Shown here piece by piece: positions 2,049 through 30,536 of a stretch of 30,536 nucleotides of DNA. Each line of letters begins with the position of its first letter. Within the stretch, counting starts at the first letter, position 1. This DNA is from a virus. Below the pieces are notes generated by a model. It saw nothing but the letters and a program-made list of their open reading frames with translations, searched no databases and was not told the DNA's origin. The translations under genes were made by a program, and so were the position numbers. The stretch spans positions 1 through 30,536 of the IMG/VR virus record IMGVR_UViG_3300021956_000056. One strand, 5' to 3'.

Positions 2049-2113
2049 TTGACAAAAATACCCAAAAAACATAGTATTTTTTATTGTTTTTGTCTATAAT
2101 GACTAAATACATT
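2049..2113 (+). promoter_or_regulatory. Plus-strand promoter region for the polymerase-like gene
   Basis: Holds TTGACA (2049-2054) with TAGTAT 17 bases later (2072-2077), then a perfect TATAAT (2095-2100) with a poor -35, then the genome's recurring ACTAAATACATT motif (2102-2113). Which of these is used cannot be decided by eye. A start near 2113 would put the whole hairpin and pseudoknot region in the leader. Confidence 0.5.
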
Positions 2114-2207
2114 GTCAGTTTTAGAACTACTGACATTCGTTTCTCTCAAATAGAAGTCCCCGGATTAGACCCCGGGGCTTCATCTCAGGTCTAAGAGTTT
2201 TTGAGAG
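2113..2207 (+). ncRNA. Structured, pseudoknotted leader of the polymerase-like gene
   Basis: A hairpin TGTCAG (2113-2118)/CTGACA (2130-2135) comes first. An outer 8-bp stem CTCTCAAA (2143-2150)/TTTGAGAG (2200-2207) encloses a GC-rich 10-bp stem GAAG-t-CCCCGG (2153-2163)/CCGGGGCTTC (2172-2181). Its loop TTAGACC (2165-2171) is fully complementary to GGTCTAA (2188-2194), making a 7-bp pseudoknot. The ribosome site GAGGG (2221-2225) and ATG (2230) follow directly. All pairings are seen in the sequence; a regulatory role is inferred. I do not recognise a known riboswitch class. Confidence 0.65.
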
Positions 2208-2229: not shown

Positions 2230-4050
2230 ATGAAAAAAAATTTTACACAAAAAGTCACGGGACATGTAGGTCCTGAAAATAGCAAAAGTCACGGGACAAT
2301 AATAGATAATCTTACAGATTACTCAGATGACAAGAACAAGACATATCAGAAAAATATGGGGGCATCTGATAATTGGAAAGATGCATATCTCCGAGTGCCT
2401 CATGAATTTTTGGATAAGTTCCCAGAACTATCGCAAGAAAAAGCACAAAAACATTATAATACATATCTAGATTCAGTAAGACAATTACTAATTAAACGAT
2501 TGCCATATATCACAAGTAGTTATACACATCTATCACTAGATAAATTATGGGCAAAAGAATTTCAATATAAAAATCAACGGTACTACATATATAAAGAATT
2601 TAATACAATCAGACCATTCTTTTATGCACCAGAAGAAAAAAAGGGCAATGGTCGTAAAAAAGGTAATCCATTTGAACTTAACTCAGAGGTATACATGTTC
2701 AATCAAAAACTCATCGATATATTAATTGATTCAGCAAATACAGATGAATTGGTATCACTATATTATGGTGACATCACAGATCCAGATCAATTAGAAGTAG
2801 TTCCAATTGACATACATAGTTTAAATGCTTTCATTGAAAATACATTGAGAGAAATTGAACTTTCAACTAAAAACTCAAAACATGAAGCTACATTGTACCG
2901 TAATCTAAGACAAGCAAAATACATCAAAATCATCAGTGAATTTTTTAGTCAAGCATATGGTAAACCTGTATTACCACAAATACCTAACTTAAGTCCATAT
3001 GGTCGTATGTACTATAAAGGTATCAATATACAAAATATTACTAAAGAAGTTCGCACAGCATGTTTGGGTAATCATTGTGTCTATGACTTAAATGCCGCAG
3101 TCTATGCTATCAAATTAATGATGGTTCGCAATATACTAAAAAAGAATAGTATTGACGATTATGGTCACTTTACATACACTAAAGAATACCTCGATTGGAA
3201 GAATCCTATCAGAAAGAAACTAGCACTACATATTACAAAATATCCAGATCCAGAGAAATTAGTCAAAGAAGCAATTACAGCAATTGGATTTGGTGCACGA
3301 ATCGGTGGAGGTAGTTGGCAAGTTGATGGTGAATGGCAAACTACTAGCATTGAAGATATCATTATGAATCCAGTTGATAGAATGAATTTTATGAACGATC
3401 CCTGGATTAAAGGTTTCGTCAGAGAACAACATGCAATTACCACAATCATTACTGATGAATACAAAAACGACAAAACTTTTGTTGAAAGTGTAAAAAATGT
3501 ACCAAATATGTTTAAGAACAATAAGATACGCAGAAGTCAGATTATGAGTTATGTGTTTCAACATACAGAAAAATTGATTATGGATCAGATTACAAGTAAT
3601 ATTCCTGTAGTTGCAAGAGTGCATGATAGCTTTATTACATTTAATAAATTGTCAAATGAACAGATTACAGATATCAAATATCAATTGAATAATCTAGAAC
3701 CATTGATGACATTAGATTGTCAAGAATTCCATGCATGGATAAGCAAAGACAATTATGACGATGAAAGTGACATTGATGAACAATTTAGTAAATTGACAGG
3801 TGTATATCATACTAAACCCAACATTAAATTATCTCGCAGTAACGGTAAAAAATCAGTTGATGGTTACTATGATAGTGAATGTGATTATGGTCAACAAGAA
3901 TATGATCCAGAAAATGATGATTATATTGAAGCAATGACACATGAACAACGCAGAGAACATTATAGAATTATGGGATACAATCCAAATAATCTACCAGACT
4001 TTACTTCAGATAAAGATATGGATCTAGGTAGAATGTTTGAATTTAAATGA
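2230..4050 (+). CDS. Divergent family-A / single-subunit-type polymerase
   Basis: 606 residues, GAGGG before the ATG. Three palm/fingers motifs are recognisable: motif A YDLNAAVYAI (D286), motif B KEAITAIGFG (K346, F354, G355) and motif C RVHDSF (H465, D466), with FQHTE before motif C where family-A enzymes have QGTAAD. The spacing (60 residues A to B, 120 B to C) is close to Pol I-type DNA polymerases and much shorter than in T7 RNA polymerase. However, HDS instead of HDE, and no aromatic residue at K+4, are more like T7-type RNA polymerases. No 3'-5' exonuclease motif was seen in the first 250 residues, and the C-terminal 130 residues are acidic and unknown. It is most likely the phage replicative polymerase; an RNA polymerase is the alternative. 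Confidence 0.6.
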   Translation: MKKNFTQKVTGHVGPENSKSHGTIIDNLTDYSDDKNKTYQKNMGASDNWKDAYLRVPHEFLDKFPELSQEKAQKHYNTYLDSVRQLLIKRLPYITSSYTHLSLDKLWAKEFQYKNQRYYIYKEFNTIRPFFYAPEEKKGNGRKKGNPFELNSEVYMFNQKLIDILIDSANTDELVSLYYGDITDPDQLEVVPIDIHSLNAFIENTLREIELSTKNSKHEATLYRNLRQAKYIKIISEFFSQAYGKPVLPQIPNLSPYGRMYYKGINIQNITKEVRTACLGNHCVYDLNAAVYAIKLMMVRNILKKNSIDDYGHFTYTKEYLDWKNPIRKKLALHITKYPDPEKLVKEAITAIGFGARIGGGSWQVDGEWQTTSIEDIIMNPVDRMNFMNDPWIKGFVREQHAITTIITDEYKNDKTFVESVKNVPNMFKNNKIRRSQIMSYVFQHTEKLIMDQITSNIPVVARVHDSFITFNKLSNEQITDIKYQLNNLEPLMTLDCQEFHAWISKDNYDDESDIDEQFSKLTGVYHTKPNIKLSRSNGKKSVDGYYDSECDYGQQEYDPENDDYIEAMTHEQRREHYRIMGYNPNNLPDFTSDKDMDLGRMFEFK

Positions 4051-30286: not shown

Positions 30287-30536
30287 TTATTTTAATTTAC
30301 AATTGTCACCATGCCAACGCACATAATTGCTTGAACCAACACCTTGTTTACCGCAATGTTCGCATATCCAGGGTTGTCTAGTTTTTTCTAATCCAGGATT
30401 ATCTTTTTTCATGCGTTCACTATGTTCAGGTCGTTTCTTTCCTTTACTCCAAGGAATATTTCCTTTGCGTGATTGACTAATCTTTGCTTTTGATTCAGGT
30501 GTATGCTTTGGTTTACCTTTAACCTTTTCTCTAATT
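30287..30536 (-). CDS. NUMOD3/zinc-finger protein, C-terminal part (continues at 1)
   Basis: End of the protein whose start lies at 348. Within the full 154-residue chain this part carries C130, C133, H147 and C151, a CxxC-x13-HxxxC zinc-binding pattern. The same pattern ends the 345-809 gene and the HNH endonuclease at 8501-8938. In this copy of the overlap one codon reads Arg instead of Ser. The gene is followed on the minus strand by about 95 untranslated bases with two possible hairpins before the next gene. Confidence 0.75.
   Translation of the reverse strand, partial: IREKVKGKPKHTPESKAKISQSRKGNIPWSKGKKRPEHSERMKKDNPGLEKTRQPWICEHCGKQGVGSSNYVRWHGDNCKLK
30404..30536. repeat. Terminal overlap, right copy (pairs with 1-133)
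   Basis: Second copy of the end overlap. The single difference (T30530 against G127) changes a serine codon to arginine in the gene that spans the join. It may be a population variant or an error near a contig end. Confidence 0.9.

Follow-up and report, generated by a model that had tools for sequence, protein, structure and literature searches.

The DNA analysed here (hereafter the window, meaning the whole stretch of 30,536 nucleotides) is an uncultivated virus record. Its ends carry a 133-bp direct repeat (positions 1–133 and 30404–30536, 99% identical), which makes it probable that the contig represents a whole genome, either circular or terminally redundant. The first gene of a rightward operon encodes a 606-aa protein, whose relatives came from IMG/VR only; no relative of this polymerase-like protein was found in bacterial and archaeal genomes. 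No isolated phage was close to the window by DNA, and the best matches among isolated phages were 22% over 39% of the protein for the polymerase and 28% for the terminase. The 606-aa protein received no Pfam or PHROG assignment, and its AF2 model was of low confidence (pLDDT 50). Residues 186–507 of this low-confidence model matched family A DNA/Klenow-type polymerases (VIA Z up to 9.2), Foldseek listed RNA polymerases of T7 and of mitochondria without reaching a significant E-value, and the motifs YDLNAA and VHDSF were noted by eye. The protein is probably polymerase-like as judged from model and motifs, and a DNA or an RNA type would be possible alike.

Upstream of this gene lies a structured leader (Table 1). 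The earlier note had described an outer stem (P1), a GC-rich hairpin (P2) and a 7-bp pseudoknot at this place, and all of these pairings were present, exact to the base. In folding, the window leader surpassed all 200 of 200 dinucleotide shuffles (z = −4.1), and the combination of a hairpin of at least 5 bp, a loop pseudoknot of at least 6 bp and an enclosing stem of at least 6 bp was found in 8 of 20,000 shuffles of the same leader. The 5′-proximal hairpin probably sits at or near the 5′ end of the RNA, and relatives have a hairpin of other sequence at the equivalent position. The earlier note knew of no family with this layout. Consistently, Rfam 15 at the gathering threshold gave no match for the window, the six first relatives or eleven further relatives; the best sub-threshold match was PsrR1 (23.5 bits, with 42 needed), and lax thresholds gave nothing credible.

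Table 1 Features of the leader and of the gene behind it, in window coordinates
Feature	Position	Strand	Remarks
Candidate sigma-70-like promoter, TTGACA-17-TAGTAT	2049–2077	+	10 of 12 consensus matches
TAAATACA motif, T4-late-promoter-like	2104–2111	+	Consensus match
5′-proximal hairpin, TGTCAG...CTGACA	2113–2135	+	From fold
Anti-Shine-Dalgarno (anti-SD) strand, TTCTCTCAAAT	2141–2151	+	Pairs with 2217–2227
P1, outer stem	2143–2150/2200–2207	+	8 bp; 3′ strand (2200–2207) is TTTGAGAG
P1 5′ strand, core of the anti-SD strand	2143–2150	+	Pairs with 2200–2207
P2 5′ strand, GAAG-T-CCCCGG	2153–2163	+	2153–2156 and 2158–2163 paired; T2157 bulged
P2 loop, ATTAGACC	2164–2171	+	2165–2171 is the pseudoknot 5′ strand
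P2 3′ strand, CCGGGGCTTC	2172–2181	+	P2 is GC-rich, 10 bp with one bulge
Linker, ATCTCA	2182–2187	+	Initial AYYU kept in most leaders
Pseudoknot 3′ strand, GGTCTAA	2188–2194	+	7 bp with TTAGACC (2165–2171)
Ribosome-binding site, ATTTGAGGGAA	2217–2227	+	Partner of the anti-SD strand 2141–2151
First operon gene, 606-aa polymerase-like protein	2230–4050	+	Weak AF2 model and motifs

Two promoter candidates precede the leader. The sigma-70-like element is, by consensus match, a possible early promoter; the relative L003 has a perfect TTGACA-18-TATAAT at the equivalent place. The TAAATACA motif is the probable promoter of the leader transcript. In relatives, (T/C)TAAATA stands upstream of the leader; in the window it also occurs at many intergenic places. 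Both candidates would put the whole leader into the transcript. The earlier note had made its leader depend on transcription starting no further downstream than 2200, and promoter-like motifs, by consensus match, indeed lie upstream of it.

T4-late-promoter-like motifs are intergenic in many places in this 30-kb phage. AAATACATT occurs 7 times in the window, a number that none of 100 shuffles reached, and TAAATACA occurs at window positions 2104, 4174, 8940, 10634, 14317, 24786, 28990 and 29473 (+) and 30201 (−). Another H-type pseudoknot of different make-up, GACTACTCTTGTACCGTAGTAGGCACGAAACGGTAC, also shows compensating changes; it lies at window 30240–30205 (−) and in relatives at L002 about 75 (−), L003 4764 (+) and L004 3594 (−), as well as in L041 and L039. 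It is located just upstream of a TAAATACA motif in several relatives and after an HNH/NUMOD3-type gene in some, and gave no Rfam match.

Homologous leaders and conservation of the fold

Six relatives had contigs extending upstream of the polymerase-like gene and, with the window, provided the first seven leaders. All seven carried P1, P2 and a perfect pseudoknot of 6–7 bp. Because MAFFT alignments displaced the helices, counts were taken from hand-set or scripted alignments. In the structural alignment of the seven leaders, fitted by hand to the structure, 98.3% of cells paired, a value reached by none of 500 shuffles. Both-sided changes occurred at 24 of the 30 pairs, P2 was 100% paired, and shifting the 3′ partners by one column lowered pairing to about 50%. 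Since this alignment had been fitted to the structure, an independent test was needed.

The covariance model R1 comprised P1 and P2 only, and the pseudoknot was absent from both R1 and a second model, R2. When run on relatives fetched via other genes (a second DNA motif; terminase, 80 loci), R1 found further leaders, and R2 added more; terminase relatives numbered 238 in one collection. Exact DNA patterns of the leader were also tried and rejected, the matched contigs being mostly unrelated. The resulting set held 22 parsed leaders (20 distinct), 13 of which were blind matches of the models lacking the pseudoknot. A search by script detected a perfect match of 6–7 nt to the loop in all 22 parsed leaders, with a chance of 0.0006–0.011 per leader. 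In the 20 distinct leaders, all 136 of 136 pseudoknot pairs were Watson-Crick, the strands had 12 distinct sequences, and both-sided changes occurred at every pair counted. Homologues that failed to keep the pairings would have spoken against the structure, according to the earlier note; they retain them through compensating changes. On comparative grounds we regard it as settled that the leader fold is real and under selection, because leaders found blind carry this fully Watson-Crick, covarying pseudoknot.

The leader was present in one copy per genome in the genomes searched. Loop and helix sequences vary freely, even between the close relatives L002 and L006, and few unpaired positions are conserved overall, an unpaired A before P2 and AYYU after P2 being largely kept. 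The P2/pseudoknot module has been exchanged as a block between the otherwise near-identical leaders L002 and L006, and the loop types TTAGCG and CTGACAG recur in distant phages. A kissing-loop reading, in which a stem P4 (UCUY/RAGA) flanks the pseudoknot 3′ strand, was rejected: the two hairpins would be joined by 0–1 nt, a joint so short that P4 and a full loop–loop helix probably cannot coexist in cis. P4 is present in many nested folds and may belong to the off state described below.

Pairing of the P1 strand with the ribosome-binding site

While the structure in the earlier note stands, a second pairing had been overlooked there. The strand 2141–2151, which contains the 5′ strand of P1, matches the ribosome-binding site 2217–2227 over 11 contiguous pairs (−13.1 kcal/mol; equalled in 1 of 1000 shuffles). 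Indeed, the nested minimum-free-energy fold of the window is this competing state, without P1. For five of the first seven, the window included, no other stretch of the leader pairs better with the SD than the P1 5′ strand does, and the energies of the two states were computed to be close in all seven before any pseudoknot penalty.

To examine this coupling across the family, the 20 nt before P2 were scored for pairing with the SD region against 2000 composition-preserving shuffles per leader. With the SD and P1 test windows placed around features already seen, the anti-SD/SD match beat the shuffles at p<0.05 in 17 leaders of the 20 and at p<0.1 in 19. Fisher combination gave 5e-21 for all leaders and 2e-17 for the 16 less related ones, assuming independence. 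The match was borderline in L002 and L006 (p about 0.05), and L008, where the polymerase start is 64 nt away and the anti-SD pairing is absent, is the exception in the set. The pairing of the P1 5′ strand with the P1 3′ strand likewise reached p<0.05 in 17 of 20 leaders; P1 alone gave p 0.07–0.11 in the window (p=0.07), L006 and L105. The anti-SD match reaches past the SD core and covaries, as in ATTTGAGGG/CTCTCAAAT and ACATTTAGGA/TCCTAAATGT, and in L041 the P1 3′ strand and the SD region share the identical 9-mer GATTGAGAA. The start codon of the window lies 35 nt downstream of the pseudoknot, and this distance was 31–45 nt in 19 of 20 leaders. The SD that would be switched stands before a short ORF, and not before the polymerase ORF, in L002, L004 and L006.

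Because one strand has two conserved partners, one of them the SD, the leader appears to have the anatomy of a translational switch, in which P1 with the pseudoknot and the anti-SD/SD helix would be mutually exclusive alternatives. We consider it likely that the leader is a new cis-acting RNA switch at the 5′ end of a rightward replication/early operon, setting translation of the first gene. That the leader controls translation of the next gene, as the earlier note had proposed, is probable in view of the conserved anti-SD/SD coupling. In the on state, P1, P2 and the pseudoknot would form, P1 would hold the anti-SD strand, and the free SD would permit translation; in the off state, the 5′ strand of P1 would leave P1 and pair with the SD, shutting translation off. 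New transcripts probably begin in the on state, because P1 is transcribed ahead of the ribosome site. The balance could be set by slow refolding alone, as in a timer, or by a factor that stabilises or melts the pseudoknot. We infer control of translation by the two states, and the direction in which the pseudoknot corresponds to on would follow from the anatomy.

Genes behind the leader and alternative explanations

The first genes after the leader fell into at least seven unrelated clusters. The polymerase-like gene was the downstream gene for seven leaders, with a short ORF intervening in L002, L004 and L006. Among leaders found blind, a protein of ~250 aa without known family came next in seven contigs and a 56-aa ORF in three, followed in two of these three by 287-aa and 554-aa ORFs. 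Further first genes were a 401-aa ORF with an HDGF motif (L074), a DUF5710 protein and a 105-aa ORF, and in L105 a small ORF was followed, 0.3 kb downstream of the leader, by a 36% polymerase relative. Where a contig allows the comparison, the terminase follows a few kb downstream of the leader, or the leader occupies the equivalent place. Operon position, rather than any one gene, is what the leader goes with; because unrelated genes follow it there, we assign it to the head of a modular replication/early operon, in front of the first rightward gene of a replication cassette that changes.

Several side observations concern the start of the polymerase gene. Short ORFs (MSKVLK... and others) lie between leader and polymerase start at L002 693, L006 311, L004 4944 and L008 4936, and could be leader peptides or serve translational coupling. 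A 14-nt direct repeat, AAAGTCACGGGACA, occupies window 2251–2264 and 2285–2298 (+), with counterparts at L002 755/789, L003 5013/5047, L004 5001/5035, and L007 and L008 5010/5065. Its copies stand in different reading frames, spaced by 34 or 55 nt, and are more alike within a genome (13.3/14) than between genomes (10.3/14), which points to concerted change, whether of the DNA or of the RNA. Programmed bypassing of the 34-nt repeat by ribosomes was considered and rejected, the required upstream frame being stopped or start-less in most relatives. At L004 4992–5125 a separate ORF of 44 codons encodes the N-terminal part of the polymerase; it overlaps the main ORF close to a stretch of six G, where the window has five, and may reflect a frameshift, a slippage site or an assembly error.

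An antisense or other small phage RNA could pair with the hairpin loop and block the pseudoknot, as in the replication of IncI/IncB plasmids (repZ), and the block swap between L002 and L006, the recurrence of loop types in distant phages, and a pseudoknot ahead of a replication gene, accompanied in several members by a short leader ORF and resembling ColIb-P9 repZ as cited in PMC10724649, would fit such a trans-acting RNA. However, no convincing conserved antisense promoter was found, the best minus-strand matches being weak and within conserved coding sequence, and the genomes searched contained no further copy of the module. We consider this explanation unlikely, though worth keeping in sight; if true, the interchangeable loop types would be immunity or incompatibility groups.

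A small-molecule riboswitch, in which a metabolite would bind the pseudoknot or the junction and stabilise the on state, is in our view decidedly unlikely. The compact aptamer-like fold is joined to a textbook anti-SD expression platform, and the unpaired A and AYYU on either side of P2 are largely kept; yet an aptamer would not usually have so few conserved unpaired positions and such freely varying helices, none of the Rfam riboswitch classes matches, and the downstream genes share no common metabolic pathway. A shade more doubtful still is a portable switch whose pseudoknot 'alleles' would confer specificity in trans through loop–loop pairing between leaders of the same type or with a matching phage RNA. 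Such a switch would gauge phage mRNA or genome dose and discriminate against phages of other types.

The earlier note had thought first of autogenous control by the polymerase. Under such repression the protein encoded at 2230–4050 would bind the leader pseudoknot and shut off its own translation, like T4 gp32 or gp43. Seven leaders precede homologous polymerase ORFs, the polymerase relative behind L105 and the HDGF-bearing ORF with which L074 starts fit this idea, and T4 genes 32 and 43 provide the precedent (PMC3014915). Leaders of the same architecture, however, precede at least seven unrelated first-gene clusters, in most of the newly found contigs the stretch from leader to terminase lacks any relative of this polymerase, and the free variation of loop and helix sequences is not what a sequence-specific protein operator would show. 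Because the leader heads operons with unrelated first genes, polymerase autogeny cannot be the shared mechanism; it is possible for the polymerase-bearing members only, and as an explanation of the leader we find it improbable. Equally improbable is an element for stability or processing that protects the 5′ end, with the SD match a by-product of a pyrimidine-rich strand: the 5′-proximal hairpin is also present in relatives, but the match exceeds the SD core, covaries and survives composition-preserving shuffles. The origin-linked RNA primer offered as an alternative in the earlier note is extremely unlikely, for although the leader heads a replication operon, no evidence for a primer and no origin feature were found, and the conserved ribosome-site coupling would be left unexplained.

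Relation to known regulatory RNAs

The preferred reading, a translational switch in cis, has partial parallels in several systems. Like the T4 gene 32 leader, ours places an H-type pseudoknot upstream of a phage replication gene, where an effect on the initiation of translation is likely (PMC3014915, PMC535899). A leader pseudoknot ahead of the start codon is a feature of gene 32, and here one lies about 35 nt upstream of it. In T4 the single-stranded DNA-binding protein (SSB) binds cooperatively along an unstructured A+U-rich stretch, whereas here the closing stem shares a strand with the anti-SD and the downstream genes vary. No match to an SSB family was found among the first genes, which are polymerase-like or belong to other families. 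The gene 43 operator of T4 and RB69 is likewise a leader RNA, placed close to the ribosome site of a gene for a polymerase. In T4 it consists of one hairpin whose loop is conserved and of the UAAC type, and a pseudoknot is not in evidence there (PMC3014915). In contrast to its UAAC/CAAC loop, the loops here vary, with 12 distinct pseudoknot strands, and find their partners downstream, and only some of the genes behind them encode a polymerase.

In repZ of ColIb-P9 (IncI) and repA of IncL/M, as cited in PMC10724649, a pseudoknot between a loop and a downstream strand is the translation switch of a replication gene. Leader ORFs, variable loops and a pseudoknot near the ribosome site of a replication gene are common to those systems and ours, so far as that source cites them. 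There, by the same citing account, antisense RNA competes for the loop, whereas here no antisense gene was found: a search for an antisense covering the hairpin gave only weak minus-strand promoter matches, within coding sequence. The switching helix also differs from that in the systems so cited, being P1 versus anti-SD:SD here.

With translational riboswitches the leader shares the use of one strand by both an upstream fold and SD sequestration, and mutually exclusive SD sequestration, as in a riboswitch-type expression platform, is found in the leader. Unlike in riboswitches, a conserved ligand-pocket core is not apparent, few unpaired positions being kept, and none of the known classes fits. 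The leader of the MS2 maturation gene, from an RNA phage and without a pseudoknot, is a kinetic folding timer; here too, action by folding kinetics without a ligand could be conceived. Overall, the leader resembles the T4 gene 32 and IncI/IncL/M pseudoknots and the riboswitch platform, and on the features tested membership in none of these groups is shown.

A 2010 review regarded the T4-type gene 32 pseudoknot as possibly the only viral one known to autoregulate translation (PMC3014915). The leaders described here, about 20 in number, constitute an undescribed, well-supported family of cis-regulatory RNA in uncultivated tailed phages without a close cultivated phage. The leader joins a pseudoknot to what would be an anti-SD switch and persists while the replication genes behind it are exchanged, raising the question of what common signal might be read by phages with different replication machines.
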